Below, piece after piece: positions 35,573 to 53,397 of a DNA stretch of 64,000 nt (position 1 is the first letter of the stretch; the number at the start of each line of letters is the position of its first letter). Below the pieces are notes generated by a model. The model ran no database searches. It was not told the DNA's origin and saw only the letters and a list, made by a program, of their open reading frames with translations. The stretch covers positions 223,407-287,406 of IMG/VR virus record IMGVR_UViG_3300013104_000001. One strand, 5' to 3'. Source of the stretch: a virus. The translations under genes were made by a program, and so were the position numbers.

Positions 35573-37036
35573 ATGTCATTAGACCTTATTAACTCCTTTG
35601 TTGATGACAGTGGTTCAGTGCCGAAGACTGCGCTGACTGTGGTCAGTAAAAAGGATGATGACATCAATGCACGTCTCCCCAAAGAGATGGCAATGATCAA
35701 AGCCTCTACTGAAGAGATCGTTGAACTTCAGTCCGTGCTTGAGCGCATCCGTAAAGAAGGCATGAGCCGGGCCCTGGCTGAACGTGTCATGCAGGTAGCA
35801 CCAAGTGCCATGCCTGTGGGCTACGGCGTTGAGAGCTTCACTGTGGTACCTTCTCGCATCTGTATGTCGGCTGGCATGGAATCAATCGTCGGTTACATCA
35901 TCGAAGGTGTAAAACGTCTGATCGCTTTCTTGTTTGATAAAGTCAGAACAGCAGCGACATGGGTTGTTGATACCTATAAACGTTTCACCGGTATTTCACC
36001 TACCGCCTACAAGCTTGAGCGCCGTGCTGTTTACATGCAGCAGATGTCAGCTGAGTTTGCTAAGCACTTTGGTAGCGATATCGCCGCTCTGCTGGAAGAT
36101 GAGATCAAAGAAGGTTTCGTTGATATCAATGCAACGCGTGTTACCATGACCGGGATGTTTGCAGACGCCTCTGTTCTGCAGCAGGACTTGTCTAAATACG
36201 CCAAGCCAATCAACCAGATGTCGAGCCAGATCGAAGGCTTACTTTCTGACATCCCACAGCGTGCTGCGCGTGTGAATGCGATTGCCAACGACATCACGGT
36301 ATCTCGCGATGGTAATGCTGATCGCAGCGTTGAAATCCTGCGTTACATTGATACGGCTAAACTCGATGCGCTGATTAGCTCACTGCGTACTGTTGCTAAA
36401 ATGTTGGCCAGTTCTCCGATGTATAAATCACCGGGCGTTGGTAAAGATGGTAAGCTTAAGCAAACCATCGTTGAGCAGCTGAATAGCGATGGCTTCCGTG
36501 ACCTGATGTCTGGTCTGTCCATGGCGGCTAATGCCGGCGTATCACACACCATGAACATGTCTGATGCATCTGCGGTTATCCGCTCGCGTAATCTGACACA
36601 AGCTGTGAACGAACTCACTAATTACAATGAAGTGAAGAAGCGTTCATTGGATGAGCTTAAATCGGCTGCGACTTCGGTCAATACCAATAAGTACATCCAG
36701 GCTGCTGAGAAGGCACCAGGTGACGACCCAACCACGAATGCACTGGTTCAATTCGCTCAGTACTTCGATGACGTCACCACTGCGGTTAAACTGGCACAAG
36801 ACATTACTGCTTCGTATGCAGAAACCGTCTTTAAGCTGCAGATCTTTGCAGTTAAGTGTCAGGACTTCGCATTGATCCAATGGAGCGAGTCTCCAGAGAC
36901 CCGTGCGTTGCGTCAGATGAATGAGTCAACCGAACAGGCCCAGGCGATGATCAAGCGGTATATCGACAAAGTGGTGAAGAACACTGCTGGTCTCGGTAAT
37001 GCGTTAAACGATCTGAACAAAGCGTTAAGCGCATAA
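35573..37036 (+). CDS. Inner-body (ejection) protein paralogue, 487 aa
   Basis: Start behind GAGGAGTAATC. After an N-terminal region of about 85 residues the sequence has SAGMES-I, a small-x-Glu step of the type cut by jumbo-phage prohead proteases. An amphipathic stretch (IVGYIIEGVKRLIAFLFDKV) and a long all-helical region follow. The arrangement (pro-region, G-M/L-E site, amphipathic helix, long helical domain) recurs in the neighbouring genes. In phiKZ such proteins (gp93, gp95, gp97 group) build the inner body and are injected with DNA. Confidence 0.75.
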   Translation: MSLDLINSFVDDSGSVPKTALTVVSKKDDDINARLPKEMAMIKASTEEIVELQSVLERIRKEGMSRALAERVMQVAPSAMPVGYGVESFTVVPSRICMSAGMESIVGYIIEGVKRLIAFLFDKVRTAATWVVDTYKRFTGISPTAYKLERRAVYMQQMSAEFAKHFGSDIAALLEDEIKEGFVDINATRVTMTGMFADASVLQQDLSKYAKPINQMSSQIEGLLSDIPQRAARVNAIANDITVSRDGNADRSVEILRYIDTAKLDALISSLRTVAKMLASSPMYKSPGVGKDGKLKQTIVEQLNSDGFRDLMSGLSMAANAGVSHTMNMSDASAVIRSRNLTQAVNELTNYNEVKKRSLDELKSAATSVNTNKYIQAAEKAPGDDPTTNALVQFAQYFDDVTTAVKLAQDITASYAETVFKLQIFAVKCQDFALIQWSESPETRALRQMNESTEQAQAMIKRYIDKVVKNTAGLGNALNDLNKALSA

Positions 37037-37045
37037 GGAGCGAGC

Positions 37046-38299
37046 ATGGATCCATTATTGACAACAATTCGTGAAACCACTGAGATGTGTGACGCACTCC
37101 TCTCATTGGCACAACGTGTTGAACTACTGGGTCCCATTGCTGCTGAACAAGAGAACTTCAATACCATCAAACAGAAAATTGACCGCAAGGTAGAAATGAT
37201 TGCGGCCTCGATGGAATCTATTGAGTCCTCTGGGATCAACCAGGAGGCAGTGCAGGAAATCAATGCATTGCTCCCTGGGATCATTCCAGCTAACTTACCT
37301 CTTAACGGGTTTACTCGTGAGCGCAGTGCTTTTAACAAAGGTGCTGCCCTTGAGGCGTTAGCGGAAGGCAAAGCAGTAATGGTGTCAAGTTCGGCATCCG
37401 GTATCCTTGCGATTATCGTGAAGCTGTTCCGCTGGATCGTCATGACCGTGAAGTCTTATTTGAAGTCACGTCGTGATATCAATCGATTGGGTGTAGGCAC
37501 TACATCTAAGATCAATAGCGCTGGTTCAATCAATGAGTATCTCTTGGCAGAGCTTGCAAAGACCCAAGAGTACAAGATCGCTCGTCGTGGTTATGAGTGG
37601 ATCTATTCGATTGGCCGTCCTACCCAGGCGGTCTACAAGTTCAATGAACAGGCGATGATTCAATGGTGGCCTGAACTCATCAATGAGCTTGAGTACGAGT
37701 ATGCTGAGGTCAATAAAGCATTCACTGCTTTACGTCAGGGTCAGTACTATACCCCGAACATTGCCAAAGCAACTCAATCACCTTCTATGCTGCGTTTCTT
37801 TGAAGCGCTGCCACAGGGGTGTGATCGTAGCGGTAAGCTGTTTGATATCGATCAAGCCCGCAGCCAGTACCAGGAAAACCCACAGCGTGCTCTGTTCCAG
37901 TTGGCTGAGCGTCTGCGCTACATGATCATGAAAGAACCGAGTATTAAAGGTGAAGAGTTCTGTAGCAGTGCTCTGTCGTTAGGTCGCAGTATCGAGACCT
38001 ACACCAACGTTGATCGTTTAGTGTTTGATCAACTTAACACCTTTGACACCGGTGGTCGTTTAGGTAAGCTGGAAGAGTCTTTCACGCACCTGTATAAGTC
38101 TGTACAGAATGCGCGCTACAACGTGGATAAAGAAGTCGTAGACGAGTTCGTGAATTACGTTAACCGTTATTCAGAGAAACTTAACTGCTTCGTCCAATTG
38201 ATCACTGTCGTGTCCTACCTTGACACCTGCAGTTATCAGATCCTCGAAGATCTCTCGAAGTTTACTTTGAAATATGTAGACATCGCTGCGAATAATTAA
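37046..38299 (+). CDS. Inner-body (ejection) protein paralogue, 417 aa
   Basis: AAGGAGCGAGC precedes the ATG. The N-terminal third is helical and acidic; ALEALAEGK near 110 precedes a strongly hydrophobic/basic stretch (SGILAIIVKLFRWIVMTVKSYLK) like the amphipathic region of the preceding gene. The remainder is helical and Tyr/Gln-rich. Same order of parts as its neighbours, though sequence identity looks low. Last plus gene before a bidirectional terminator. Confidence 0.72.
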   Translation: MDPLLTTIRETTEMCDALLSLAQRVELLGPIAAEQENFNTIKQKIDRKVEMIAASMESIESSGINQEAVQEINALLPGIIPANLPLNGFTRERSAFNKGAALEALAEGKAVMVSSSASGILAIIVKLFRWIVMTVKSYLKSRRDINRLGVGTTSKINSAGSINEYLLAELAKTQEYKIARRGYEWIYSIGRPTQAVYKFNEQAMIQWWPELINELEYEYAEVNKAFTALRQGQYYTPNIAKATQSPSMLRFFEALPQGCDRSGKLFDIDQARSQYQENPQRALFQLAERLRYMIMKEPSIKGEEFCSSALSLGRSIETYTNVDRLVFDQLNTFDTGGRLGKLEESFTHLYKSVQNARYNVDKEVVDEFVNYVNRYSEKLNCFVQLITVVSYLDTCSYQILEDLSKFTLKYVDIAANN

Positions 38300-38300
38300 T

Positions 38301-38352
38301 CGGCATAAAGGCCTGGTCCCCCGCAAGGAGGACCAGAGCCTTGTTTATGCCG
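38301..38352. terminator. Bidirectional terminator framed by CGGCATA and TATGCCG
   Basis: CGGCATAAAGGCCTGGTCC, a short loop, then GGACCAGAGCC and TTTATGCCG form an extended dyad. The outer CGGCATAAA/TTTATGCCG arms are complementary as well. The distal arm overlaps the stop codon of the converging minus gene. Confidence 0.85.
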
Positions 38353-41302
38353 TTAGTGACGATGTTGCAGAAGTGTGTTTCAGGAAGGTGATAGAGATAT
38401 CCTCCTTCACAGTCAGTGTACCATCAGAGGCCACATCCAAACGTTTCTTAATTGCACAACGCATGGTGTCGTCTTGAGCAGTCAATACACTGATATCCTG
38501 TTTAGGACCCAATCCTTTGAATTCTACATCGACCACATCTGAAGTACGATAATCACGCAGTGACTCAACCAGATCCGTGTTACCAAATGTCGCGCGTTCA
38601 ATGACCGAGGCAATAGCTGTACTGACCTTACCTGACAGGTTGGTACGCAGGGAATTGTTCTTATACCCATTGTCCGTCATGTAGAAGGTGATGTCGAATC
38701 CAATCGCCGCTGGAATCTGACGTGCTTCTTTCGCATTGGCGGTGATATTGATCAGACCCAGTGTCTGTTTAGGACGCAGATTAACCGTCGTCTTCTCCAG
38801 TAACTGTTTCTTCACTTCCGCCATGTCATCCGTTACCCAGTTGACCAGATCACCAATGACTTCGCTGACATACGCTTTGTCCAGGGTGTTGGTACTGAAG
38901 TAATAGGTACCATCTAACCCAACGATATCCACCTCACGCACAACAACACGTTCGTTCAATGGAATTGGATTACCTTGGTCATCAGACTTGATATCACCGA
39001 TACGATAGCGATAGATGATAGCACCGTCAGCGTCATACATGATGTCGCCTTTGGTATGCAACACAATCGGATTGTTATTACTATCAAATACCAACTGGTT
39101 TGTCTGAGGGTCACGCTGGTAGATCGTCTCTGCATAACGCCATGCAACATCAACATCATACTTCTGATATTCGATGTTGGAAGTAATAGAACGCGAACGC
39201 TGATAGAGATAGGTCAATGCAGAACCCAGCACTACATCGTAAGACTGCTCAGTTACCACGACGAATGGTTTGCTCAGATAGAACCCGCCCAGCTTCTTAT
39301 CACTGTCACTGTAGACAATGTCGTTTGGTGACTTATCAGCAGCAATACAGTTCAGCAGTGTGAATTGCTTCTCCAGTACAGAACGCAGTTTAGACGGAGC
39401 ATTACCAAACTGACCGAATGATGTCAGGATGATTTCGTCATCTGCGGTGATGTCCAGGTTACTGTCAACATCAAACTGCCAGATACGTTCACGGGTTTTG
39501 GTTCGACCGAGCAGCTTACCGTTCAAGTAACCGTAGTTCGATTCCCCTTCTGGCATGAACAGCAACTGACAGGCAACGTCTGCATCAGCCAGGTTCTTGT
39601 AGAAGTCCTGAGACGAGGTCACCACTGTCACGCTGTAACCATTAGCGGATTTCTTCAACGTGAAGCTGTCTGCGTTGAGCTGCACACCTAATGAGTTGTT
39701 CTCATAGGTGAAGACACGGTACGGTACTGAAGGGCGATCCAGGTCATACACGCGGGTTGTAAACGCATCGTTGTTCGCATCGTACACGGTGTAGAATGGC
39801 GAGTACATAAACACATCGTTGTTTACAGTAAGCGCACGTTCTTCCAGAGACGAAGCATTGATCGCAGCAAGTTCACCATCGGAGATCATCCGATAGATCC
39901 CGCCATCCAAACGATACACTGCCGACGGTGTTACGGTTAGTCGCAGGTTGTTGTCCTTCACCGCACTGTTAGTAATCAACTGCGCCATAGAAGACTGCAA
40001 CGTCACGATACCGGTACCGATCGGAGTAGTGATGTCTGACTTGTTGGTTTGTGGGTTAAGCGCACGTGTTGCCTGATAGATACGGTTAGTTACCATGTCT
40101 TCAGATTTCAGTGTGCCGTACCCCAAGTCAGAAAGCGTTTTAGATACCTGGTCAGAAGTAATCGGCAACGTTGTCTGGTTAGCAGCATAAATGACATCTT
40201 CACGCAAATCGTTTAATGACTTACCATCACTGCCACCGCTAACACTTGTGGTGATCGAGATAGTCTTCTCATTAAACACGGTCAGTGGCGTTGCATACTT
40301 ATCCAGCGTACCGTTATCGTAGTTGAAGTCCTGGAACACCGCAATGATGTTTGCCGCTTGTAAAGAAAGGGTTTCAATAACCAACTTACCTTTACTGGTG
40401 TAAACATCGATACGTACCTGGCGACCTGTACCGAGATTATTAGAAACATAAACCTCTGGCAGCATTATCTTTACCGAGTCTTCTAAGACTTGGGCAACAA
40501 AGGTAAGCTTGTTGTTGTCGTACACCAGATCGTCATGGGTTACATACGCTTCAACCCACGGGTTGTTCACATTGGTACGTGTAAAGACACGGATGTAATA
40601 GAACTGATCACCGTTCAATGGGAACTTGTTATTGAAGCCGGAGATGTTCGTAATCGTACTGGTATAAGACGTCGCTTTAAACTGACGCATCGGTACCGTG
40701 ATGTACAGCATCTCTTCATTATTAAAGACGACTTCTTTCCAATCGAGCTGGTTAGACTCAACGGTCATTAACGGTGTCGGCTGTGAAACATCATACACCA
40801 CCACAAACCCACCGTGCTTCATGACACGGATCTCGATCGGGTATTCCAGACTGAAGGTAGTATCCATTGCAGTGATCTGCGTGTTACGTGGAATCACCAT
40901 CTTCGAATAGATACTGTCGATGTCGTCGTTGCCACCGCTTTCAACTTGAACGGCACGAGCACGAACTTCGTCGGCATTGAAGATCAAGTTAACCGTCAGA
41001 CGCGCAGGCGTGCAGAACCGGTTCTTGTAGTCTTCATCACTCATGTTACGATACAGATCTTCATAAGACGCAGAAAGCTTAGGGTAGAACTGCGTGATGA
41101 GATCCTGGTGGTTTTGCATAATTGCCGAACCCATGAGTGCGTTGAGTTCAAACGCAAACATTGCTGGGTTGGTTGCATTGACGATATCTACCGTACCATC
41201 CATTGCCTGATCCAAAAGATCCAGCGAGTAATCGACCATCAAAGAAGGATCATTACGAAGATCAATCATCTTCTGTTTGATGTCATTGGTGCTGTCAGCC
41301 AT
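38345..41302 (-). CDS. Large baseplate protein, possibly gp6-like, 985 aa
   Basis: The N-terminal 110 residues contain a helical region ending in FYPKLSASYEDLYRNMSDED, which resembles the start of T4 gp6-type baseplate wedge proteins. A long beta-rich middle follows, then SLNDLREDVIYAANQT near 365, similar to the segment that opens gp6 domains. The C-terminal region is mixed. No membrane segment. GAGG precedes the ATG. The length and layout match baseplate wedge proteins of contractile tails. It shares its transcript with the 341-residue gene upstream, and both interrupt the inner-body cluster on the opposite strand. Exact assignment is tentative. Confidence 0.7.
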   Translation of the reverse strand: MADSTNDIKQKMIDLRNDPSLMVDYSLDLLDQAMDGTVDIVNATNPAMFAFELNALMGSAIMQNHQDLITQFYPKLSASYEDLYRNMSDEDYKNRFCTPARLTVNLIFNADEVRARAVQVESGGNDDIDSIYSKMVIPRNTQITAMDTTFSLEYPIEIRVMKHGGFVVVYDVSQPTPLMTVESNQLDWKEVVFNNEEMLYITVPMRQFKATSYTSTITNISGFNNKFPLNGDQFYYIRVFTRTNVNNPWVEAYVTHDDLVYDNNKLTFVAQVLEDSVKIMLPEVYVSNNLGTGRQVRIDVYTSKGKLVIETLSLQAANIIAVFQDFNYDNGTLDKYATPLTVFNEKTISITTSVSGGSDGKSLNDLREDVIYAANQTTLPITSDQVSKTLSDLGYGTLKSEDMVTNRIYQATRALNPQTNKSDITTPIGTGIVTLQSSMAQLITNSAVKDNNLRLTVTPSAVYRLDGGIYRMISDGELAAINASSLEERALTVNNDVFMYSPFYTVYDANNDAFTTRVYDLDRPSVPYRVFTYENNSLGVQLNADSFTLKKSANGYSVTVVTSSQDFYKNLADADVACQLLFMPEGESNYGYLNGKLLGRTKTRERIWQFDVDSNLDITADDEIILTSFGQFGNAPSKLRSVLEKQFTLLNCIAADKSPNDIVYSDSDKKLGGFYLSKPFVVVTEQSYDVVLGSALTYLYQRSRSITSNIEYQKYDVDVAWRYAETIYQRDPQTNQLVFDSNNNPIVLHTKGDIMYDADGAIIYRYRIGDIKSDDQGNPIPLNERVVVREVDIVGLDGTYYFSTNTLDKAYVSEVIGDLVNWVTDDMAEVKKQLLEKTTVNLRPKQTLGLINITANAKEARQIPAAIGFDITFYMTDNGYKNNSLRTNLSGKVSTAIASVIERATFGNTDLVESLRDYRTSDVVDVEFKGLGPKQDISVLTAQDDTMRCAIKKRLDVASDGTLTVKEDISITFLKHTSATSSLTA

Positions 41303-41311
41303 TATAACCTC

Positions 41312-42337
41312 TTATTTCGTTTCTTTTGGAACCCACCACTGAAACTCGTTGGTCATGGGATCGATATATGGATAGCCGATAAAGTTAGTGCGCTGCATTT
41401 CAGATGGCGTGATCTTACGGTAAAATGAATTACGGTTAGCTGCCTTCATTTGCGGGTTAAAGATTTCTACACAACTATTGAAATCAAGAATCAACGATTG
41501 TGTATTGTACCGCCAACCAACGCACGACCAGTTACAACTGATTTGGTTATTGTTCTTAATCAGAGGACTTTCTCGGGTCGTGTTAAAGTCAAATGCATTA
41601 CCAATTGGGTTGGTTGTGCAGATCGCTGCATAGGGCGCACCAATCTTTGTAACATAACGATAAGTCTGGTCCAGGATGATGCGATAGAAACGCATGGTGT
41701 AATCAATATAGTTGTTAACAATGGCTTCCCAATAAGGAACCATCTCACCAAGGTATACTGAAGACGAATAAGTTTGCAGCAAATCGAGGATCATGGTAAT
41801 CGGGTCACCGGAGATGTTCGTGTGTGAAGACGTTATTTGATACGCTTCATTATACTCCGATTGTCCATCAACCATGGTCCAGGTTTCTTTACGTGCACCC
41901 GGTGGGGCGGTAAAGGTATCGATTACAATATCAGGGAAACCCGTCATTGATTCTAAGGTGTTTGATAAAATCGGCACAAAAGCCTGTTGGTTATCAAACA
42001 GCGCAGAATACGATTTTCGGTCAATTGTGCCCTTTGCATCGAACATCGAACGGATAGCGCCTGGGATGGTATTCGGGTTATTTGAACCCAGTGCCAAGAG
42101 CTTTTCTTGCCGCATTAGATTATCGTATGACAGGTTAAGGATTGGGCGTGTGAAAAAGGTATACCCCATGACGTCTTTATTGATTGGTAAGAAGGCGCTG
42201 CGGTTACTGAATTTGTTCAAACCCCAATACTGATGTGCAAGCGATGAGGATACACTACCGTACCCCGATTCCCTCGCAGCCGAGTCAATGCTATCGGTCC
42301 ATAACCCAGGATTGTATTCGTCGTTGTTATCGGTCAT
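41312..42337 (-). CDS. Probable virion structural protein, 341 aa
   Basis: AAAGAGG precedes the ATG. The protein is rich in Asn, Tyr, Ser, Pro and Trp, with an all-beta appearance and no membrane segment. It ends 9 bases before the large baseplate-like gene, so both are made together and probably act in the same baseplate or tail structure. No family recognised. Confidence 0.7.
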   Translation of the reverse strand: MTDNNDEYNPGLWTDSIDSAARESGYGSVSSSLAHQYWGLNKFSNRSAFLPINKDVMGYTFFTRPILNLSYDNLMRQEKLLALGSNNPNTIPGAIRSMFDAKGTIDRKSYSALFDNQQAFVPILSNTLESMTGFPDIVIDTFTAPPGARKETWTMVDGQSEYNEAYQITSSHTNISGDPITMILDLLQTYSSSVYLGEMVPYWEAIVNNYIDYTMRFYRIILDQTYRYVTKIGAPYAAICTTNPIGNAFDFNTTRESPLIKNNNQISCNWSCVGWRYNTQSLILDFNSCVEIFNPQMKAANRNSFYRKITPSEMQRTNFIGYPYIDPMTNEFQWWVPKETK

Positions 42338-42386
42338 TACTCACACCTCTTTAAAAAATAAATATCCGTTGAATCAAGGAGTCAAT

Positions 42387-43547
42387 ATGTTACCAGTTGT
42401 TATTACGGGGGCGATTACACTGGCCAGTTCGCTTGCGCTTGTCGCAGAGCGAATTCTCGCTGCGAAACAAAAAGCAAGTGAGATCACCGGTAGTGTTGAC
42501 AAAACCCTTACCACTTTAGGTCAGATGGGTACCCGCGACCTGATTACTTTCACTAAAGTGACCCGTATGGAACCTCTGGTGTTAGTAGACGAGCGTTTAA
42601 AGTTCGACCCCTCTACACCGGAAATCCTGCAGGTGTTGACCAGCCTGATTGCTGGCTATTACACACAAGCTTTCGCCATGCTCGGTCAGGTTGACGGCAT
42701 CGATGTTGTTGGCACGCTGGATAAGCTTAACCCAGCGCGTACTGGTATTGGTCTGAATAACTTCGATGGTGATGACAGCGGTTACCATAAGTTTCCTAAT
42801 CAGTCAAACACCCCTCTCTATAGTATCGGGCTTGAGGCCTTAGAAACTGTAGTGGGTGAAGCCAAGCCGGTTAAAATCCAGACTGATAAAAATGTCATTG
42901 CTGATATCAGTTCACCGACTAACCTGGCGATCGGTAAAATGATCAAGGTATCACTGTCATCTAACGGTAATGTGGTTGAGATCCCAATCACCATCCGTGT
43001 GAAACCAGTCACTACCACCGCTGAAGCCGTTACGGCTATTCTTGGTATCGGTACCACCAAGAACTCTGTATCTGAGCGCTGGAACCGTTTCAAAGCAGGC
43101 GAGCTGACTTTCACCAACCTGGCAACAGGCGATGACGTTATCCGTCAGCACAAGAAAATCCTGGTTCAGGACACTTCCGGCTTCTATGCTGAGATCGTTC
43201 GTCGCGCTCGCGGTAACGCGAAGAAAGGCATGATCTCTGGTAACCTGTCTCTGGCAACTGATTCTAACTGTATCCTTATTAGCTCCGATACTGCGCTGGA
43301 TGTATCGCGTGAACTCGGCGGCACACTGGATAACTTTAAAATCCGTGAAGCCATGTTCTCGAAAGTTTATTCTAATATGCTGATCATTGTTGATCAGATG
43401 CGTGGAATGGTTTCTTTCTATTACCGTGGCGAGCAGTTACCGACCCGTCTGTCACTGCAAGACATTAAACTGCATAATAAAGGCAGTGGTCCAGACATCA
43501 TGTCTATCTTCACTGCGTTTGCCGAAAACAAAATCCCGTCGCTTTAA
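42387..43547 (+). CDS. Virion protein with N-terminal hydrophobic helix, 386 aa
   Basis: Start at ATG 42387 behind CAAGGAG; the frame extends upstream into the divergent minus gene, which I reject. The first 35 residues are a hydrophobic helix without positive N-terminus (LPVVITGAITLASSLALVAERI). Around residue 147 is SIGLEALE, the small-x-Glu step of the inner-body group, followed by a beta-rich domain. The hydrophobic segment may be a removed pro-region or a membrane insert. Belongs to the inner-body operon. Confidence 0.72.
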   Translation: MLPVVITGAITLASSLALVAERILAAKQKASEITGSVDKTLTTLGQMGTRDLITFTKVTRMEPLVLVDERLKFDPSTPEILQVLTSLIAGYYTQAFAMLGQVDGIDVVGTLDKLNPARTGIGLNNFDGDDSGYHKFPNQSNTPLYSIGLEALETVVGEAKPVKIQTDKNVIADISSPTNLAIGKMIKVSLSSNGNVVEIPITIRVKPVTTTAEAVTAILGIGTTKNSVSERWNRFKAGELTFTNLATGDDVIRQHKKILVQDTSGFYAEIVRRARGNAKKGMISGNLSLATDSNCILISSDTALDVSRELGGTLDNFKIREAMFSKVYSNMLIIVDQMRGMVSFYYRGEQLPTRLSLQDIKLHNKGSGPDIMSIFTAFAENKIPSL

Positions 43548-43559
43548 GGATCCCGTTCG

Positions 43560-44465: not shown

Positions 44466-44475
44466 GGAGCCCGTC

Positions 44476-45015
44476 ATGGCAGATAGAGTTTCTACTGGTG
44501 CTGAACTTATCTACGGCACCGGGTTTACCTCCCATGGCGGTCCAGGCCAGAAAGGCATGAAGATCAATGTCGATAATAAGACTATTGATCTTTATCAGCA
44601 ACTGAATGCCAACATTGCGTTGGTTGATAACTTTGCGTTTAAACGTGAAGTTTGTGTTGCGGCCTCTCGTCTGATCCTGCCTTTGGCAAACTGGCTTCTG
44701 GCAACCCGTGCCAATTACCTGCATTCAAAGCACGCACTCTTGTTTGCACGTGACTTGGCATTGGTCGCGATGGGCAAAGAACCACAGATGAGTATCATGA
44801 CGCGCATGCGTCTGTTCTCACCTTCTGCGGTGAAATCCAACCCAGGTGAACTCAATGCAACGAACTTCGATGCACTGGATATCATCTCGAACAGTTTTAT
44901 TGATGAAGTCCGCACTTACAGTAATGGTAAGCTGCTGGCAAACCTGACCCGCGACTCACAACGTACTCGTGATCTGGTCACTTCATTATATGTCATGTTT
45001 GGTTCTGTTGAATAA
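44476..45015 (+). CDS. Small virion-cluster protein, 179 aa
   Basis: AAGGAGCC precedes the ATG and the gene follows 10 bases after the coiled-coil protein. A Gly-rich N-terminus (about 1-30) is followed by a helical body with Arg, Leu and Ala. No family recognised. Confidence 0.7.
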   Translation: MADRVSTGAELIYGTGFTSHGGPGQKGMKINVDNKTIDLYQQLNANIALVDNFAFKREVCVAASRLILPLANWLLATRANYLHSKHALLFARDLALVAMGKEPQMSIMTRMRLFSPSAVKSNPGELNATNFDALDIISNSFIDEVRTYSNGKLLANLTRDSQRTRDLVTSLYVMFGSVE

Positions 45016-45053
45016 CGGGCCGTATAAAATCGGAATAAAAGAGGAAGAAATAA

Positions 45054-46667
45054 ATGGGTAATAATTACCTCGGTTTGCTGCTGTCAGCGGGCAACAATGC
45101 GTTTGATGAAAACGGCGAGCCAGCCCAACCAGTTCTGGTTGATGCACCCGTTGTTCCAGAACCAGTGGTCGACGTCCCTGTTGTCGATCCTATCGTTGAA
45201 CCTGTTGTCGATCCAGCACCAGATGTCGAAACTCCACCGGTTGTTACTGCTGATCCAGTTGAACCTCAGCCTGAGACCCTGTCTATTGTGCTGGCGATTA
45301 ACGAAGATGAGCAAGAGCTCGTTGCTGCATCTAGCGCTGCTGCTCAGGCAGAAGTCGCGCTGATTGATGCTGATTGCGTTCTGGATGATTCAGAGACCCA
45401 GCTGACCGAACAGGCGCAGGTTGTTTCTGAAGTTGAAAACGTAGTCGCTTCAATGGAAAGCTTTATCGGCTCTCCAATGTCAATGCAGGATGCGGTTGGT
45501 CTGCAGAAATGGGTTGTAAGTGCTACCCGTGGCGAATACGATCAGTCTAAAGTTGTCGGCTCTCTGGAATCATTCGGTAATGACGTTGCAACTGATGATG
45601 CACTGTCTGCTGGCCTGGAAGGTATTGGCGAATTCCTGAAAGCGGCCCGTAACAAACTGAGCGACATCCGTAAAGTGATGGTTGCTAACTGGGCGAACTT
45701 CTTCAAAGAAGCTTTCCTGGGCTTTGATAAAGTTGCACGTCGCGCTGAAGCACTGGCGAAGATCGCTAAGAACACCGCTGGCGAATCCAACTCTTCTTCT
45801 ATTCAGCTGCCGCTGGATACTGCATGGCGTCTGGTGAAAGATGGTAAGGTTTCTCAGAACCTGCCAAAAGATCTGGGTGATCTCGGTAAGTTCACTAAAC
45901 TGATCTTCAAAGACAACGCCGATGCGCTGGTCATTCATCGTAAGAAACTGGTTGACATCGCAATTCGCCTGTCTACCGCTGAATACGACGACGCAGTTAA
46001 GATCGCCAAAGAACTGGTGAGCTATGAACTGCCAGGCGTTGCAGTTTGTAAGATCAAAGTGCAGTCCAACTCTAATACCGTTGACCTGTACCGCTCTGAT
46101 GAAGTCCTGGGTGGCGTAGCAGTAACCTTCGCTAAACCAGTTGACAAAATCAATGCGCAGCTTCCACTGACTCGCCAGCTTAACGACAAATGGAACAACG
46201 TCATCCGTACCGACGTCTCTGTTGCCGCGACTGGTAAGAAAACGCCGAAGCTGGATGTTGCGATCGATACTCTGCAGCCTGCTGAAATCGCGAAGCTGGC
46301 CGATGATGTTTCTGCCATCCTGGGCGATGTGAAACAGTATCGCACCAACTACTCCGACTGGTATGCAAGCAATACCGATCTGGATCGTGCTATCGCTGTT
46401 CTGGCTAACGTACCGTGGTCTGGCGACAACGGCACCACTGTCGTTGATAGCAATACCGATGCAAATGGCAACAGCGTATCCGTTGTTAGCATCATCGGTC
46501 TGAACCAGGACATCGCTGATGTTGTTGATGCGATCCATGATCAGTACAGCTACCTGACTGTCGCGCCTATCCGTGCGTTCACTGCTGAACTGCTGCCAAT
46601 CCTGAACCGTGTGCTGGAAGTCGGCGAACGTTCACTGGCAACGTACAGCGACAACAACCTGTCCTAA
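45054..46667 (+). CDS. Inner-body (ejection) protein paralogue, 537 aa
   Basis: AGAGGAAG precedes the ATG. The N-terminal LLSAGNNAFDE step fits the short tag shared with other members; then comes a Pro/Val/Asp-rich linker (about 25-78), a helical pro-region, and closely spaced cleavage-type sites SMESF, SLESFG and AGLEG (about 132-190). The mature domain then starts with a Lys/Arg/Ala-rich helical part. It is paralogous with the gene at 49612 over the whole length, including an LGG-x-AV strand. Likely made as a precursor, cut by the prohead protease and stored in the capsid. Confidence 0.78.
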   Translation: MGNNYLGLLLSAGNNAFDENGEPAQPVLVDAPVVPEPVVDVPVVDPIVEPVVDPAPDVETPPVVTADPVEPQPETLSIVLAINEDEQELVAASSAAAQAEVALIDADCVLDDSETQLTEQAQVVSEVENVVASMESFIGSPMSMQDAVGLQKWVVSATRGEYDQSKVVGSLESFGNDVATDDALSAGLEGIGEFLKAARNKLSDIRKVMVANWANFFKEAFLGFDKVARRAEALAKIAKNTAGESNSSSIQLPLDTAWRLVKDGKVSQNLPKDLGDLGKFTKLIFKDNADALVIHRKKLVDIAIRLSTAEYDDAVKIAKELVSYELPGVAVCKIKVQSNSNTVDLYRSDEVLGGVAVTFAKPVDKINAQLPLTRQLNDKWNNVIRTDVSVAATGKKTPKLDVAIDTLQPAEIAKLADDVSAILGDVKQYRTNYSDWYASNTDLDRAIAVLANVPWSGDNGTTVVDSNTDANGNSVSVVSIIGLNQDIADVVDAIHDQYSYLTVAPIRAFTAELLPILNRVLEVGERSLATYSDNNLS

Positions 46668-46685
46668 TCCGCAAAAGGCAAAGAG

Positions 46686-48143
46686 ATGACTATTCATCAA
46701 CAGCTCCTCTCTGCCGGCCTGGAGGCGTTCGAAGCGCCTCCTGCTCTTGCAGATGTAACACCGCCTCAGCTCCAGCAGGTATTTGGTGGTAGTGACCCAG
46801 TTCCACTCGAGACTCCACCTCCGGGTGTTGAACTCTCTGTGGTTGCACCGAGCCCATTTGATGCGGGCTACGTTGAAACACCAGAACTCCTGCGACAGGA
46901 GATCGAAGCACGTCAGGTCATGGTTGAACTGATTGAAGAAGAACGTCAGGCACAAGAAGCGCGTCAGTATGTTGAAGAGATGCGTCGTGCGGGTGATGGT
47001 CTGGAAGGGCTGATGGTTGAAATCCAAAATGTCAACAACCCTGAAGAACCCACTGAAGACGAAATGGCGATGCTGCGCTCTACGGCATCACTGGTGCGTA
47101 AAGAAGTGCTGGATGAAGACGACCAACAGGTTGTCATCGATCTGGAAAATGGTGTACTGGTTGGCTCACAAGAAGGCCTTGGTGATGCAATCTCCAATGT
47201 CACGACAAAGATCAAATTCGCGCTGGGTAACGCTGCGAAGAACTTTGCCTCTTCTGGCGAGAAAACCAAAAAGCCATTAACGTATCATCGTAACAATGCC
47301 AAAGAATTGAAAGATCGTATCGGCGCACTTAAAACTGCAGTCTTTGCGTTTACTCTGCCAGCGGCATTGGTTAAAAGCGTTGCGGTAGCGGACAGCGGCA
47401 AACTCGATTTGGTCAATGACATCAATTCACTGATCACCGGGTTAGAACACTGGTACGCACAGCCGTCTGCAGACGCTGCAGGTTACTTCGATAAACACGA
47501 AGCAATCCTCAAGGCATGTCTGGCAACCGATTCTTTGGAAGCTTTTGATAAAGCGTACGATGCGTTTAAATCACTGAAAGCACCACTGCCATCTTCTGCG
47601 AAGAAGGTCGAGCCGATCAATGCCAAAGAGTATGTGTTCGACGCGCATTGCGACGGCACCGCAATGGCAGGCGTTTCACGCTGGTACTACATTGCCCGTC
47701 CTAATGGTCAGGATGCAGAAGAAGCAGTACGTGCAATTCGTGCCTTCAATGCAGGCCTCTTCCCATATGTCGCCATCGCCGATCGTAAAGGTGCGGATAC
47801 TGAAGTTTCACTGAAGAAAGCTGAGTTACTCGGTCTGCTGGACGTGATCACGAAAGGTTGTGTCATCATGGATCAATTCCTTGGTCGACTCAACATCATG
47901 AGCTCGTTCGATAAGCGTTACGATGTGTTGGTTGATGATTACAACAAAACCTTCACAAAGAAAGACTGGGTCAATCGTGATGCGCAACGTAAAATGATCG
48001 TTGCAATTCAGGCGCTGGATTCGTATTACGCTTACGGCTTCTCTTACACTAACATGGCATTCTTCTTGTTTGATGTCATCGTGAAGGTAGTGAAGAAAGC
48101 GGTGTACAAATCCGATCTCAGTAAAACCGAAGAAGATAAATAA
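46686..48143 (+). CDS. Inner-body (ejection) protein paralogue, 485 aa
   Basis: AAAAGGCAAAGAG precedes the ATG. The first residues (QQLLSAGLEAFEAP) are the clearest form of the N-terminal tag. A Pro-rich linker, a Glu/Gln/Arg coiled region (about 78-115) and the site SQEGLGDAI near 160 follow; the mature domain begins Lys/Ala-rich. A DNA-binding or injection role is suggested by charge. Same order of parts as the neighbours at 45054 and 49612. Confidence 0.76.
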   Translation: MTIHQQLLSAGLEAFEAPPALADVTPPQLQQVFGGSDPVPLETPPPGVELSVVAPSPFDAGYVETPELLRQEIEARQVMVELIEEERQAQEARQYVEEMRRAGDGLEGLMVEIQNVNNPEEPTEDEMAMLRSTASLVRKEVLDEDDQQVVIDLENGVLVGSQEGLGDAISNVTTKIKFALGNAAKNFASSGEKTKKPLTYHRNNAKELKDRIGALKTAVFAFTLPAALVKSVAVADSGKLDLVNDINSLITGLEHWYAQPSADAAGYFDKHEAILKACLATDSLEAFDKAYDAFKSLKAPLPSSAKKVEPINAKEYVFDAHCDGTAMAGVSRWYYIARPNGQDAEEAVRAIRAFNAGLFPYVAIADRKGADTEVSLKKAELLGLLDVITKGCVIMDQFLGRLNIMSSFDKRYDVLVDDYNKTFTKKDWVNRDAQRKMIVAIQALDSYYAYGFSYTNMAFFLFDVIVKVVKKAVYKSDLSKTEEDK

Positions 48144-48153
48144 CGGAGTAAAC

Positions 48154-49518
48154 ATGTCCGCACTCGACAGGTTCCTTTTTGACGCGGGCATGGAGGGGTT
48201 TAACGACCCCTCCTCTATACCGCCCGTTGGTATAGTCGTGCCCTTTTTTGGCGTAGAGGAGTTTGCAGAAGCTGATGAAGTCTCCCGTGTTGTCATGGAA
48301 GATATGAATCGCCAAGCAGACGCTGTCTATAAACTGCAAGAGACGTTGGTGTACATTAATGCCAATCGTCCTAACTTTGATCGCGGTAATGCCGAGCATG
48401 TAATTCAGGCGCTGGGTGATGTGCAGGTGCTGATGCCTAATATGGAAGACCCAGTGACTATCATGGGTTCTCTTGAGCACTACACTCCGTCTTACTCCAG
48501 TCATCTGCTTGGTCACGGTACCGAGTCGATCACAGGTATGATCACTGCAGCTATTCAGAAACTGATTGAACTTCTGAAGAAAGGCGTTGGCTGGTTGGTC
48601 AATGCCATGCGCAGCGCGTCGATGGTGCTGGGTAAACAGAAGCGCGAAGTGACTGAGTTAAGCGCTTGGTTAAAAGCAAACAAAACTACCGCACCTACTG
48701 TTGTAAGCGTGCCGGATAACTTCATCCTGATAAGTAAGTTATCTTACTTCTATTTGCCAGGTGAAGATAAGCCAGTTACGGCCGATCGCATCCCGTATGA
48801 AATTCGTCGTCTTAGCAGGTTCTGTCGAAATGTTAACGATGAGTTCATCGCCAAATACATCATGCTTGGTCGTATGTATTTGAAAGTGATCAACAACATT
48901 GACTTATCTCAGCCGTCAAGTGTGTTGTTCCGCCAAACCTTTAAAGGTCAACCGGTCTTCACAATCGGTGGCAGGCCATTAAGTCGCCGTAGTAATGGTG
49001 ACGATTCTCTTGAGCAAGCTGACTTTATCGGTGGTATTGGTTTCTGTGCGCCTAATGTGCATAAAAAGATCACCTCGCCAGTTGGGCTAGCCGATGATGG
49101 TTCCGAACAACAGAAGTATTTTAATCTGTTGAAGAACATGGAGCAGTTTGAGTTCAACAACGGAATGTGGATGGATCGTAATCTGCGCTTTGTCCAACCT
49201 ACCCCGTGTAGCATCCAAGAAGGCATTGTGATCACTGATGAACTCGATAGCCTCATTGACAGCATTATTACTAACGACATCAGTAATGAGGTTACTAGTT
49301 TTAATAATGAAGTTAGAGCGACTATCGAGATGCTGCGTCGTTATCAGTTATCAAGTGTCCGTAGCAACTTGCCAAATGACGATTACATGAACACCATTGG
49401 GTTTTCTTTATTCGCCATGGCTAACGCGATCAGTCGCTTGCCGTATGAGATCACACGTGAAGTGAATAACTTTACTAACGCCATGCGCGAGTACGTGACC
49501 AAGTCAGTTAAGTCTTAA
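48154..49518 (+). CDS. Inner-body (ejection) protein paralogue, 454 aa
   Basis: ACGGAGTAAAC precedes the ATG. The tag is FLFDAGMEGFND. The pro-region ends with MGSLEHY and GTESITGM near 105-130, after which an amphipathic helix (AIQKLIELLKKGVGWLVNAM) starts the mature part. This matches the layout of the 487-residue member. The C-terminal half is helical, with many Asn and Arg. Ends before a hairpin that may partly terminate the transcript. Confidence 0.76.
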   Translation: MSALDRFLFDAGMEGFNDPSSIPPVGIVVPFFGVEEFAEADEVSRVVMEDMNRQADAVYKLQETLVYINANRPNFDRGNAEHVIQALGDVQVLMPNMEDPVTIMGSLEHYTPSYSSHLLGHGTESITGMITAAIQKLIELLKKGVGWLVNAMRSASMVLGKQKREVTELSAWLKANKTTAPTVVSVPDNFILISKLSYFYLPGEDKPVTADRIPYEIRRLSRFCRNVNDEFIAKYIMLGRMYLKVINNIDLSQPSSVLFRQTFKGQPVFTIGGRPLSRRSNGDDSLEQADFIGGIGFCAPNVHKKITSPVGLADDGSEQQKYFNLLKNMEQFEFNNGMWMDRNLRFVQPTPCSIQEGIVITDELDSLIDSIITNDISNEVTSFNNEVRATIEMLRRYQLSSVRSNLPNDDYMNTIGFSLFAMANAISRLPYEITREVNNFTNAMREYVTKSVKS

Positions 49519-49533
49519 TTATTATATGTACAA

Positions 49534-49577
49534 AGGGCTCCCAGGAATGCGAGCCCTGTCGCGACAAACGATCGTTT
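49534..49577 (+). terminator. Hairpin followed by two perfect palindromes
   Basis: Stem AGGGCTC/GAGCCCT (49534-49557, ten-base loop), then TGTCGCGACA (49557-49566) and AAACGATCGTTT (49566-49577), both perfectly self-complementary. No T run follows the hairpin itself, so it may be a weak terminator, an RNA-processing site or a protein-binding site ahead of the next highly expressed virion gene. Confidence 0.5.
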
Positions 49578-49611
49578 TAAATCTCATGAGAAAATGGAGT
49601 ACCGAAAGATT

Positions 49612-51009
49612 ATGTCTATGAACATGTTCCTTGGTCTTGGCGCTGAAGCGTTCGAAGATCAACCAGAAGTACCAGTGGTCGAAACCCCACCAGTGGTAGC
49701 TGCTCCGGTTTCTGAAGAAGTGATTGCGCTGATCGCTGAACGCGATGATTCTGACGCTGCGGTTGAAGTTGCAACAGCCGGTGCTGAGATTGCTGCAAGT
49801 GTTCGCCAGATCGATCAGTACGCTGATGCAATTGAGCGTATCGAAAACGTTCAGGCATCAATGGAACACTTTATGGAAAACGGCATCACGCCAAAAGCTG
49901 CTGCCATGCTGCACGCTCAGATCAACGGTCTGTATGCATCTATGGGCAAAGGCGCTGAAGGCGTAGGTAGCGGTCTGGAAAGCTTCGATAACGAAGACAC
50001 TTCTATGGCTATCCTGAACGCCGGTATGGAAGCGCTGAACAGCGAGAAAGCTTCTCTGGGCGAACGCATCCGTGCGGCCTGGATCGGTTCTGCTGATTCA
50101 ACCAACAAGTTCTTCACCAAATGGCTGACTCGTGCCGGTGCTCTGAAACGCCGTGCGCAGAATATCGTTAAAGCTGCTCAGGGTAAATCTGGTTCTGCCG
50201 AGGTTACTCTGAAGAGCCGTTATCTGACTGTGAAAGGCGGTCAGGCTTCAACTAACCTGTTGGCCGATATCACTGCGTTCCAGAAGTTTGCTGAAGACGG
50301 CGCTGCCCGTTACTTCAAAGACGGCGGTGCATGGCTGAATGGTGAACTGATCACTGCTGTTAAGAAAATGGCAGCTGTTTCTACCGTCGAAGAAGCTGGT
50401 AAAATCGTTGACAGTCTGAAATACCCAGGTTACCCAGGCGCGACTATCGCCGTTCAGGATAAACCTGCATTCACCATCAAACGTACCGAAGTGGTACTGG
50501 GTGGTTACGCGGTGTTTGATCTGCAGTACAAAACTACCGGCGGTAGCACTCAGCCTGAAATCATCCATGAGCTGAAAGCACTGGGTAAAAACCGCGTGCA
50601 TGTGAAACAGGCGCCGGATGAGAAAGGTAAATCTGAATTCAGCATGTCTGTTTCTGCTGCTGACGCTATCGCTATCGCCAACGCAGTAATCAAACTGGCT
50701 GACATCGGCGCGCATCTGGAGAAGAACATCAAATGGATGGATCCGTTCACGAAGAGCATTCTGAACGGCGCTAACGCCAGCCGTGCTGCGATGACCCGTA
50801 ACGACAATGCTGAGAAAGGCGTTGCTGTTATCCTGGATTACCTGGCTCGTGCTCCTACTGGTGTATTCCAGTCAGTACAGTCTCTGACCTGGGAACTGTC
50901 ACAGGCAATCTTCAACGTAGCTGATGCTGCGCTGAAAGTAGCGAACAAAGTTGCTAAGACTTCTGAGTCTGGCGAAGCGGCCGGCGGTTCTGAACCTGCA
51001 ACAGCTTAA
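49612..51009 (+). CDS. Inner-body (ejection) protein paralogue, 465 aa
   Basis: I place the start at ATG 49612; an in-frame ATG at 49594 is possible. The tag is FLGLGAEAFEDQ, followed by a Pro/Val linker. SMEHF, GLESFD and AGMEAL (about 85-145) are cleavage-type sites. The mature domain is Ala/Lys-rich with the LGGYAVF strand seen in the 537-residue paralogue. Codon use looks optimised in its coding strand (many CTG, GAA, CGT), as in the 537-residue gene, which fits an abundant virion protein. It ends at a terminator, so it may be the end of the main transcript. Confidence 0.78.
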   Translation: MSMNMFLGLGAEAFEDQPEVPVVETPPVVAAPVSEEVIALIAERDDSDAAVEVATAGAEIAASVRQIDQYADAIERIENVQASMEHFMENGITPKAAAMLHAQINGLYASMGKGAEGVGSGLESFDNEDTSMAILNAGMEALNSEKASLGERIRAAWIGSADSTNKFFTKWLTRAGALKRRAQNIVKAAQGKSGSAEVTLKSRYLTVKGGQASTNLLADITAFQKFAEDGAARYFKDGGAWLNGELITAVKKMAAVSTVEEAGKIVDSLKYPGYPGATIAVQDKPAFTIKRTEVVLGGYAVFDLQYKTTGGSTQPEIIHELKALGKNRVHVKQAPDEKGKSEFSMSVSAADAIAIANAVIKLADIGAHLEKNIKWMDPFTKSILNGANASRAAMTRNDNAEKGVAVILDYLARAPTGVFQSVQSLTWELSQAIFNVADAALKVANKVAKTSESGEAAGGSEPATA

Positions 51010-51027
51010 GTTATACCTTAACGTATA

Positions 51028-51060
51028 GCCGAGGGGAGGGGGATTCCCCTCTCCTTTTAT
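51028..51060 (+). terminator. Terminator with TTTTATACC tail
   Basis: A G-rich/C-rich imperfect stem (about 51033-51042 with 51045-51054) is followed by TTTTATACC. It fits the TTTAT tail signature with a variant end. Confidence 0.7.
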
Positions 51061-51081
51061 ACCGACCAAAAGGTGAAATGC

Positions 51082-53397
51082 ATGACCAGCATGAATACAT
51101 TGGGTCCAGCACAGTCAACGTTGCTTGCTGATGAATCAGACGGTAAACAAAAAAAGAAAGTTACCGACAACGCCAAAACCGAATCTACCGAGATGTCAAT
51201 TGAGATCTTGAAGAAAACCAGTAAAGAGAAACCTGAGACTACCGAGGGCGACGAACCTGCTTTCGGGTTTGGTAGTGAAGGCTACGCAATGCTGGACAGT
51301 ATGTCGTTTGACTTAACCGAACACAGCGACAAATATATCCAAGAGCTTCTGGATAAAATTACCACCATCGTGATTGAAGCCAACGGCGATCTTAATAAGA
51401 AAGACCTGGAGAAGATCCGTAACGTCGGTCTGGAAGATTACCGTGATCTGGCACAAGCTGCTATGAAGCGCATCATGCAGTTTATCCGTTGGTCTATTAA
51501 CCAAGGCAAAGAAGGGATCAAGCGTGTCGCTGATCGTCTGGGCCGGTTAGGTATGAAGTCGATGTATGTTGAGCGTAAACTCGATATCTCAACTGACAGT
51601 TCATTGCCTACGGATAAGTTTGTATTAGCACGTTCTTTCCCATTGTTGATGCTTGCTGATAAACCGCCAGCGAATGCAATGGATGTGCTGAACTCGTTGA
51701 ATAAAACCAAGTATCTATTCACCTTGGTCCACAACGATTATCAGAACTACCAGAACCTGTTTAAACAAGCTGTTGCAACTGGCTCACGTTCTGAAACGCT
51801 GGAGATGATCAATAACTATTTGAATTCACTCTCAGGTCGTTTAGGCGCTAAGCCCAATCCGCAGTTTAATAACAACCTGAGCTTTAACTATCTGCCAGGT
51901 GGTTATCGTCTGGTGTTCTCAACGGGCGATTCATTTGCCGATTGCTCTGCGATACTTGTGCGCGTACCTGGTCAGTATAGTGTTGCGCCGTCTGCACCGC
52001 GTCCTGATAAGTCGAGCCTGGTTCGCTTGATGGCTGAGATCAAACAGTTCCTGCGCACCATCAATGAGATCTATGGAAAAGTCTCTAGTCGTTTGGAGTC
52101 TGACTTCCGTAATATCTCCCGCAGTGCTGAACGCGATATTAAGACGTTTGACTCGTCTGTTGATATCCGTACTGCATCGACAACCGTTGAATGGTTTGTT
52201 GAACAGCAGTCACGTATTTTCACTCGTACGATGATGTTGTCATGTTCGGTATTGAATGCGTGCCTGGACTACTGTATCGCTGCTATTGGCGGTAAGCCTG
52301 CTGCCGGTATGGAAGACTTCGATGACAGCTACACTATCGAAGCGCTCGGTGAGCAACTGGATTCCATTGATGATCGTCTACGTAGTATTGAAGTAGATGC
52401 ATCGGTTATTCAATCTATCGGGGACAACAAAGACCTGGTTGACTGTGATAACGATTATGTAATCCGTCAGCTGATTGAGACCAATGCAACCGAACCATTC
52501 ACGCCGGGTTACGGTATTGATAACCTGCGTAACATGTGGCATTTGGTACGAGCCGGTAAAACCACTGAAGTGATTACCCGTCGTTTAGGTGCGATCATGG
52601 ATGCGACATCCGATCTGGATACTTCGGTAAAATTCATGAAGACGCTCTTCACTGAAGGTCGTTTATTTGAATGCCGGACAACGGATGATTACATTGCTGA
52701 CTTTACTGCCGGTCATCCACTGTGTTCATTCCTGCACCGTGCTGAGCGTGAATCATTAGGTTCAGCGCAGATTGCTAACTACCTCGAGCAGAACGTTGAT
52801 AAGGTCAGTGCAACAGTCACGACACTTATGGTCTTTGCTGAAACACTGAGCGATACCGTTGTTGATGGTGAGTTTACCGTTAGTCGGTTGAAGGAGTTTA
52901 TGTTGAACGCTCCTCAATTACCATTTACATCAGCGATGCTTTGCGGCGGGTATGAGATCAAGGAACGTTCAGAAAAGCTTGCAGGTTTAGTTGTACGCAG
53001 CTATACACTGGAACACGTCAAAGACTTGTCACCAATTGAAAGCTTTGATGGTCATGACAGTGAAATGAATGGGTTCATTGATCAGCAGGTTAAACGGTAC
53101 GAAGCAGAGTACGCTCGCTTAGCACGTATCGTTGAATTGCTGCAAGTGGGCACAGGTCATCTGCGTTATATCACTGCAGCGGTTGTCGATAACCTTAACG
53201 CCGGTGGTTTGAAAGGTGAAGGGGATAACTGGGTGTATTCAGCAATGGAGTACTTGACTGTTGCGACTCGCCAGTACCGTTGGATGTATCGCATGACAAT
53301 CCAGCTCGCTATGTATAACCGACTGACAATTGAGGCTGCGAATCAGTATATGGCAGGAGGGTTCTATGGAAACGACGAGCAACAAGAGTCTGTATAA
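51082..53397 (+). CDS. Large inner-body-like virion protein, 771 aa
   Basis: ATG 51082 is behind AAAAGG; a GTG three codons earlier is less likely. The Lys/Thr/Glu-rich N-terminus (about 20-55) leads to AFGFGSEGYAML, the group's tag-like step, and a helical pro-region. GMEDFDDSYTIEALGEQLD near residue 410 is a further site of the small-x-Glu type. The two halves around that site both look helical, which suggests a fused or duplicated architecture. It is the longest member of the cluster. It overlaps the next gene by 32 bases. Confidence 0.74.
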   Translation: MTSMNTLGPAQSTLLADESDGKQKKKVTDNAKTESTEMSIEILKKTSKEKPETTEGDEPAFGFGSEGYAMLDSMSFDLTEHSDKYIQELLDKITTIVIEANGDLNKKDLEKIRNVGLEDYRDLAQAAMKRIMQFIRWSINQGKEGIKRVADRLGRLGMKSMYVERKLDISTDSSLPTDKFVLARSFPLLMLADKPPANAMDVLNSLNKTKYLFTLVHNDYQNYQNLFKQAVATGSRSETLEMINNYLNSLSGRLGAKPNPQFNNNLSFNYLPGGYRLVFSTGDSFADCSAILVRVPGQYSVAPSAPRPDKSSLVRLMAEIKQFLRTINEIYGKVSSRLESDFRNISRSAERDIKTFDSSVDIRTASTTVEWFVEQQSRIFTRTMMLSCSVLNACLDYCIAAIGGKPAAGMEDFDDSYTIEALGEQLDSIDDRLRSIEVDASVIQSIGDNKDLVDCDNDYVIRQLIETNATEPFTPGYGIDNLRNMWHLVRAGKTTEVITRRLGAIMDATSDLDTSVKFMKTLFTEGRLFECRTTDDYIADFTAGHPLCSFLHRAERESLGSAQIANYLEQNVDKVSATVTTLMVFAETLSDTVVDGEFTVSRLKEFMLNAPQLPFTSAMLCGGYEIKERSEKLAGLVVRSYTLEHVKDLSPIESFDGHDSEMNGFIDQQVKRYEAEYARLARIVELLQVGTGHLRYITAAVVDNLNAGGLKGEGDNWVYSAMEYLTVATRQYRWMYRMTIQLAMYNRLTIEAANQYMAGGFYGNDEQQESV

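Follow-up and report, generated by a model that had tools for sequence, protein, structure and literature searches.

A shared N-terminal tag, possibly a packaging signal, on four predicted inner-body protein precursors of a jumbo phage related to Agricanvirus

The last 64 kb of the 287,406-base viral record IMGVR_UViG_3300013104_000001 (positions 223,407 to 287,406; hereafter the window, to which positions refer unless the genome is named) contain four genes, at 45054-51009, that we consider rather likely to encode tagged precursors of inner-body (ejection) proteins. The tag would dock each precursor, a protease of the S80 family would cut it, and the basic products would be ejected with the DNA. 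The computation supports the family assignment, the precursor architecture, the protease gene and the identity of the tag core with a protease site. At the DNA level the region under study shares 74-76% identity with Erwinia phages of the genus Agricanvirus, and by sequence the source phage is a relative of these Erwinia jumbo phages, of the Chimalliviridae type.

Four divergent paralogues of the phiKZ inner-head family

45054..46667, plus strand: predicted inner-body precursor IPa, 537 aa, phiKZ_IP family (PF12699, E 7e-65), in a gp53-like position by synteny with SPN3US.
46686..48143, plus strand: predicted inner-body precursor IPb, 485 aa, divergent paralogue (hhalign to IPa; model-fold match).
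48154..49518, plus strand: predicted inner-body precursor IPc, 454 aa, divergent paralogue (hhalign to IPa and IPd; model-fold match).
49612..51009, plus strand: predicted inner-body precursor IPd, 465 aa (PF12699, E 8e-38; BLASTP to IPa, 2e-13).

Membership of PF12699 was judged by the Pfam gathering cut-off of 27 bits, which is passed by IPa (220 bits), by IPd taken from 49594 (131 bits) and by the untagged IPe taken from 51082 (32 bits). The open reading frame (ORF) of IPd opens at 49594; homology puts its start at 49612, as relatives begin at the corresponding Met-Ser, and the initial annotation of this DNA was right in choosing that start. It had also recognized IPa and IPd as paralogues, and indeed they share 29% identity over 277 aa in BLASTP and a profile probability of 99.5% over 357 columns in hhalign. 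By the same method IPa is linked to IPb (97.6% over 363 columns) and to IPc (96.6% over 124 columns), and IPc to IPd (93.5%). An AlphaFold model of IPa (mean pLDDT, the predicted local distance difference test, 74.5) was compared with viral models using Foldseek. It matches models from three Erwinia phages, namely a 462-aa protein of Ea35-70, a 461-aa protein of Mortimer and a 456-aa protein of RAY (template modelling score 0.56), which were assigned to paralogues by protein length and phage: these are the lengths of the IPd orthologue of Ea35-70, the IPb orthologue in close relatives and the IPc orthologue of RAY. Virion proteins of 201phi2-1 and PhiPA3 were matched as well. A PDB sequence search with IPa gave no meaningful match, and Foldseek of its model against the PDB found no similar solved structure at E <= 0.001. 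By profiles and modelled fold, all four proteins belong with the phiKZ inner-head family PF12699, as divergent paralogues.

Gene order matches SPN3US gp44-gp54 and phiKZ gp84-gp97, down to two minus-strand genes in the middle of the block that are annotated as baseplate wedge in relatives. In BLASTP, gene 33802 matches SPN3US gp45 and phiKZ gp84, gene 42288 matches gp50 and gp89, and gene 43560 matches gp51 and gp90, respectively. A further synteny anchor is:

44476..45015, plus strand: homologue of the phiKZ gp91 vertex-binding protein (PF25618, 5.7e-36).

The N-terminal tag

Each precursor carries a tag near its N-terminus (↓ marks a predicted cut, P1 the residue preceding it; ranks refer to the position-specific scoring matrix, PSSM, described below):

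45078..45107, plus strand: LLSAGNNAFD of IPa, P1 = N15, scissile Glu absent.
46704..46733, plus strand: LLSAGLE↓AFE of IPb, P1 = E13, PSSM rank 1.
48175..48204, plus strand: LFDAGME↓GFN of IPc, P1 = E14, PSSM rank 3.
49627..49656, plus strand: FLGLGAE↓AFE of IPd, P1 = E12, PSSM rank 2.

These are the four tags claimed initially, and they can be read directly from the translations. The proposed type, L-x-x-G-x-EAF or a variant, holds in all of them, with the amendment that IPa has Asn at the scissile position; the consensus end of the four is G-x-(E/N)-(A/G)-F-(D/E/N). The PSSM was built from the tags of relatives, window excluded, and scored on all 85,879 14-mers of the predicted proteome. The window tags take ranks 1, 2, 3 and 5, rank 4 being an internal cleavage-type site of IPd. 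Among the N-termini of 348 ORFs they rank 1-4; the best N-terminus outside the tagged cluster scores 17.4 and all others 7.5 or less. A strict DNA pattern for the tag proved too narrow and matched nothing.

The tag also occurs in relatives from annotated phages and IMG/VR contigs, some down to 24% identity. It is present in 59/60 sequences, the exception being IPc of Proteus phage 10 with a diverged start, and P1 lies at residue 12-15 in 59/59 tags. P1 is Asn or Asp instead of Glu in six of the 59, namely in IPa, its 90% identical relative L037 (likewise Asn), L043, Proteus phage 10 (two) and pEa_SNUABM_37; these tags keep Gly at P3, the hydrophobics, Phe/Leu/Tyr at P2' and an acid at P3'. In 4/4 families the identity of the tag exceeds that of the adjacent spacer. 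One IMG/VR contig, L045, has two adjacent IPc-type genes (12797 and 14104), both tagged.

Prohead protease, cut sites and pro-regions

The same phage encodes a prohead protease that is 36% identical to SPN3US gp245 (BLASTP):

157831-158616 of the genome: S80 prohead protease gene (PF20034, Peptidase_S80, 3e-82, 275.6 bits).

The T4-type protease family PF03420 has no match in the genome, and the protease, found via SPN3US gp245, belongs to S80. A diverged, gp117-like protease paralogue was not detected by BLASTP. In SPN3US, cuts have been mapped by mass spectrometry at ATE-130 of the major capsid protein and ATE-161 of the portal (PMC10052503, Table 2). The sequences QGYGTE143↓AFEQ of the major capsid protein and GSGME184↓AI of the portal occupy the identical alignment columns, and for this reason the site of the clade's protease is likely to be G-x-E↓(A/S/G)-(F/I/L). 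The C-terminal PGLE200↓SF of the protease itself lies near AQE-203 of gp245. Two syntenic genes carry similar motifs:

42387..43547, plus strand: orthologue of SPN3US gp50 and phiKZ gp89 (BLASTP 6e-32 and 2e-50), predicted cut after E150 (SIGLE↓ALET) at 42834-42836.
33802..35052, plus strand: homologue of SPN3US gp45 and phiKZ gp84 (BLASTP 9e-24), N-terminal motif SSGLE8↓AIA.

The E150 site is 4 columns away from the ATE site of gp50, for which residue 145 in GenBank numbering equals residue 127 of the paper if the second Met is the start. The first ATG of the ORF at 42288-43547 is probably not its start, homologues beginning at Met 42387. SPN3US gp45 is cut at ASE-20 (PMC10052503). The motif [AGS]xE[SAGH][FILYMW] occurs 69 times in the proteome versus 32.1 +/- 5.7 times in shuffles, and control motifs, either reversed or with D, Q or K at P1, occur 24-47 times; the inner-body set, the portal and the capsid protein are among the proteins most enriched in it.

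The (A/S/G)-(L/M)-E steps described in the initial annotation are real and conserved, with 2-3 internal sites per protein, and are better written as (A/S/G)-x-E-(small)-(F/I/L/Y). They match the sites at the orthologous mapped cuts. In the tagged families the P1 Glu of these conserved internal sites is never lost in relatives, the sites compared with tags having themselves been picked for conservation. The predicted cuts are listed below with the codon of P1 and the relatives in which the site is kept:

45456..45458, plus strand: IPa, after E135 (VVASME↓SFIGS), P1 Glu in 15/15.
45567..45569, plus strand: IPa, after E172 (VVGSLE↓SFGND), 15/15.
45618..45620, plus strand: IPa, predicted maturation cut after E189 (LSAGLE↓GIGEF), 15/15; last conserved site, followed by a basic helix.
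47004..47006, plus strand: IPb, after E107 (DGLE↓GLMVE), 14/14.
47172..47174, plus strand: IPb, predicted maturation cut after E163 (VGSQE↓GLGDA), 14/14.
48475..48477, plus strand: IPc, after E108 (MGSLE↓HYTPS), 14/14.
48523..48525, plus strand: IPc, predicted maturation cut after E124 (GHGTE↓SITGM), P1 Glu in 14/14.
49864..49866, plus strand: IPd, after E85 (VQASME↓HFMEN), P1 Glu in 14/14.
49978..49980, plus strand: IPd, after E123 (GSGLE↓SFDNE), P1 Glu in 14/14.
50029..50031, plus strand: IPd, predicted maturation cut after E140 (NAGME↓ALNSE), 5/7 annotated relatives.

All four tagged proteins have an acidic pro-region (net charge -14 to -33), and the first 60 residues of the predicted mature protein are basic (+5 to +7). 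The mature domain had been expected to open with an amphipathic or basic helix; the basic character is found in 4/4, while among the tagged proteins a standout amphipathic helix opens IPa only. We infer that cutting would strip an acidic mask off a DNA-facing basic segment. The idea of an inner-body family subject to staged cutting by the prohead protease is well supported by PF12699, the synteny with SPN3US and phiKZ, the S80 gene and the alignment with cuts mapped by mass spectrometry.

Function of the tag

In the mechanism that we propose, each precursor would consist of a tag of about 10 residues (a hydrophobic stretch and G-x-E↓(A/G)-F-(D/E)), then an acidic pro-region, mostly disordered and bearing additional sites, and finally a last site and a mature domain that begins basic. 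The tag would dock the precursor into the forming prohead core; the first candidate for its receptor is the positional counterpart of SPN3US gp243 (genome 154832-156370). The S80 protease would then cleave the tag as well as the internal sites. Acidic fragments would exit the shell, and the freed basic proteins would remain with the packaged DNA and be ejected together with it. From the sequence we infer that the precursors are cut, end up in virions and are targeted by their tags.

The tag and the cut sites had been treated as separate elements at first. The internal sites stand, and the tag turns out to contain a copy of the protease site itself: when compared with the prohead protease motif, its core equals the site at the aligned SPN3US-mapped cuts of the major capsid protein and portal. 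Since SAGLE↓AF copies the protease site, part of the conservation of the tag is explained by cutting. Nevertheless, being cut is probably not the only role of the tag, because of its fixed position, its extra residues, the occurrence of tags without Glu and the link with injected proteins in phiKZ. Regarding the extra residues, a hydrophobic P7 is found in 40/47 tags versus 61/209 internal sites, Phe at P2' in 39/47 versus 63/209, and Asp, Glu or Asn at P3' in 42/47 versus 51/209; with one row per site from this phage only, the one-sided p-values are 0.03 (P7), 0.014 (P2') and 0.02 (P3'). A difference for Gly at P3 was dropped, as it is imposed by the search pattern itself. Concerning the tags without Glu, Asp at P1 of the T4 internal protein IPIII stops cutting and permits targeting (PMC9026906).

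In phiKZ, injection has been demonstrated for eight proteins (PMC10449902). The stretches read contain 49 proteins annotated as structural, and in these we counted S/A/G-X-E sites with P1 at residue 9-16. Such a site is present in 6/8 injected proteins (gp93, gp94, gp95, gp97, gp153 and gp184) versus 1/41 of the others (p 1.3e-5). Four of these N-termini were known before the 9-16 range was chosen; the held-out part gives 2/4 versus 1/41 (p 0.018). Of the injected proteins with the site, gp153 resembles gp97 in its first 50 residues only, and no significant similarity of gp184 to the family was detected. With regard to capsid targeting sequences (CTS) of the T4 type, a short N-terminal sequence is likewise common to several proteins here (59 tags). 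The site motif is present in 3/4 window tags, IPa having Asn at P1. It is plausible that the tag is a packaging signal. A broader proposal, which we rate as slightly less likely than not, is that jumbo phages forming a nucleus share a general code at the N-terminus by which ejected proteins are loaded. The code would be a short hydrophobic helix that ends, at about residue 11-15, in the protease site. It would be portable among unrelated proteins, as on phiKZ gp153 and gp184, and separable from cutting, as in the tags with Asn or Asp at P1.

Several observations weigh against the proposed mechanism. The tag core doubles as a protease site, and its conservation is therefore not in itself proof of targeting. 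The p-values obtained over many sequences are descriptive, given that neither relatives nor paralogues are independent samples. IPb and IPc miss the PF12699 cut-off (20.3 and 11 bits); they are divergent paralogues and not Pfam members, tied to the family via hhalign and fold alone. The tag helix of IPa is modelled at low confidence (pLDDT about 31-36). RAY gp299, the orthologue of the 51073 gene that encodes IPe, localises with capsids (PMC10299810) yet is untagged, which means that other routes exist, and phiKZ gp163 and gp177 are injected without such an N-terminal site. Because of these three untagged proteins, the tag is at most one loading route, not needed by all.

Other explanations of the tag were considered. 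It could be the first of several clearing cuts that shred the pro-region for exit, with targeting located elsewhere, either in the remaining pro-region or in the mature part of the protein. The tag core is indeed also the site of the major capsid protein, the portal and gp50-like proteins, the SPN3US authors give the same reason for the extra sites (PMC5694885), and IPe is untagged with a capsid-localised RAY orthologue. We find this explanation unlikely in view of the fixed residue 12-15, the conserved flanking residues, the tags that have lost the P1 Glu and are otherwise kept, and the N-terminal site that marks injected proteins in phiKZ. A different possibility is that the tag docks onto the protease itself, or onto the long portal propeptide; a single recognition event would then serve both recruitment and cutting, with no separate core receptor. 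The tag core equals the protease consensus, and according to the SPN3US authors the portal propeptide may anchor ejection proteins (PMC5694885); tags with Asn or Asp at P1 would however be poor substrates, and loss of SPN3US gp243 removes gp53 and gp54 from heads, which points to another factor (PMC5694885). This makes docking onto the protease or portal quite improbable.

All four proteins being paralogues, the tags could also be alike through gene duplication alone, with no special function. The paralogues are, however, 19-30% identical outside the tag versus 3-7 of 10 residues within it, and phiKZ gp184 has its own kind of N-terminal site without homology to the family. Moreover, within each family the spacer beside the tag is less conserved than the tag; therefore selection must hold the tag. 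Duplication alone is in our opinion a very improbable explanation.

Untagged members and neighbouring genes

The initial annotation had placed the family at 35573-53397. The tagged genes lie within this range at 45054-51009, and three further genes of the range are untagged, though they have conserved sites:

51073..53397, plus strand: untagged member IPe, 774 aa when read from GTG, with homologues beginning at 51082; PF12699 8e-8.
51277-51279 and 51433-51435, plus strand: predicted cuts of IPe.
35573..37036, plus strand: putative processed head protein, predicted to be cut after E87 (GYGVE↓SF) and E103 (SAGME↓SI), sites kept in 11/11.
37046..38299, plus strand: putative processed head protein, predicted to be cut after E57 (AASME↓SI) and E103 (AALE↓AL), sites kept in 11/11.

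The 35573 gene sits at the SPN3US gp47 region, and its product matches IPc over the pro-region (hhalign 92%). Elsewhere in the genome, a 320-aa protein encoded between terminase and gp262-like genes (G000 174784-175746, minus strand) has protease-type sites at E18, E40 and E69, followed by a basic helix. Agricanvirus, SA002 and Proteus phage 10 largely keep the three sites. No relatives turned up when viral contigs were searched. The protein was not accepted as a fifth member of the family, to which its profile probability is 52% at most, and is retained as a candidate only, probably a further protease substrate as judged by its sites. Its 138-aa neighbour (G000 174300-174716, minus strand) shares 42% identity, over 84 residues, with the pro-region of the 320-aa protein. 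With sites at E41, E70 and E84, an acidic Pro-rich tail and no mature domain, it resembles a core protein made up of a propeptide alone, all of which would be shredded. Two protease-type motifs, E216 (YAME↓AML) and E274 (VGME↓ALG), also occur in a 1527-aa protein (G000 149308-153891, plus strand) encoded where SPN3US has its gp241 RNA polymerase subunit; this protein may be processed. The window also contains an RNA polymerase beta-subunit gene, a phiKZ gp80 homologue (phrog_2962), at 22150-23460 on the plus strand, and a 322-aa antisense ORF at 45570-46538 on the minus strand, inside the IPa gene, that is most likely a shadow of codon usage.

Comparison with known systems and significance

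The family A proteins gp53 and gp54 of SPN3US share with the present precursors the gene position, the Pfam family, long acidic pro-regions with multiple sites and a basic mature start; at the mapped sites, charges of pro-region and mature start are -15 and +10 for gp53 and -26 and +9 for gp54. SPN3US gp53 is cut at ARE-12, within the N-terminal 15 residues that it has in common with gp54 (PMC10052503, PMC5694885), and a CTS-like targeting role for this shared N-terminus was suggested earlier (PMC5694885). SPN3US differs in having two such members versus four tagged here, and in its tag, MANFVKSKLARE↓SVE compared with LLxxGxE↓AF(D/E); its protease motif is A-X-E. The phiKZ proteins gp93, gp94, gp95, gp97, gp162 and gp163 share the S80 protease family, S/A/G-X-E sites and, for most of them, the protein family, and gp93, gp94, gp95 and gp97 have SLE at residue 11-13. 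Their tag is of a different type, (L/Y)(L/V)(D/A)SLE, and their sequence similarity to the window proteins is weak. T4 internal proteins, with their CTS, also have a short propeptide at the N-terminus, with a Glu cut site at its end, and the proteases are distantly related. In T4, however, a propeptide of 10-19 residues is removed whole, whereas the tag described here stands at the front of a pro-region 124-189 residues long, and no sequence homology is shown.

The family, the protease with its motif and a shared N-terminus likened to the T4 targeting sequence are already published for SPN3US and phiKZ. As far as we have checked, what is new is the clade's tag motif, the finding that four to five paralogues in each phage carry it, the variants without Glu and the count linking N-terminal sites to injection in phiKZ; earlier literature on phiKZ and 201phi2-1 proteolysis may describe such tags. 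How tens of megadaltons of protein are loaded into the heads of giant phages is poorly understood, and a recognisable N-terminal tag would let ejected proteins be predicted from sequence. Natural tags without the scissile Glu let loading and cutting be tested apart, and the tag could serve to load reporter proteins into large capsids, in the way the T4 sequence is used. If the loading code is true, sequence would predict which proteins of these phages are loaded and injected.

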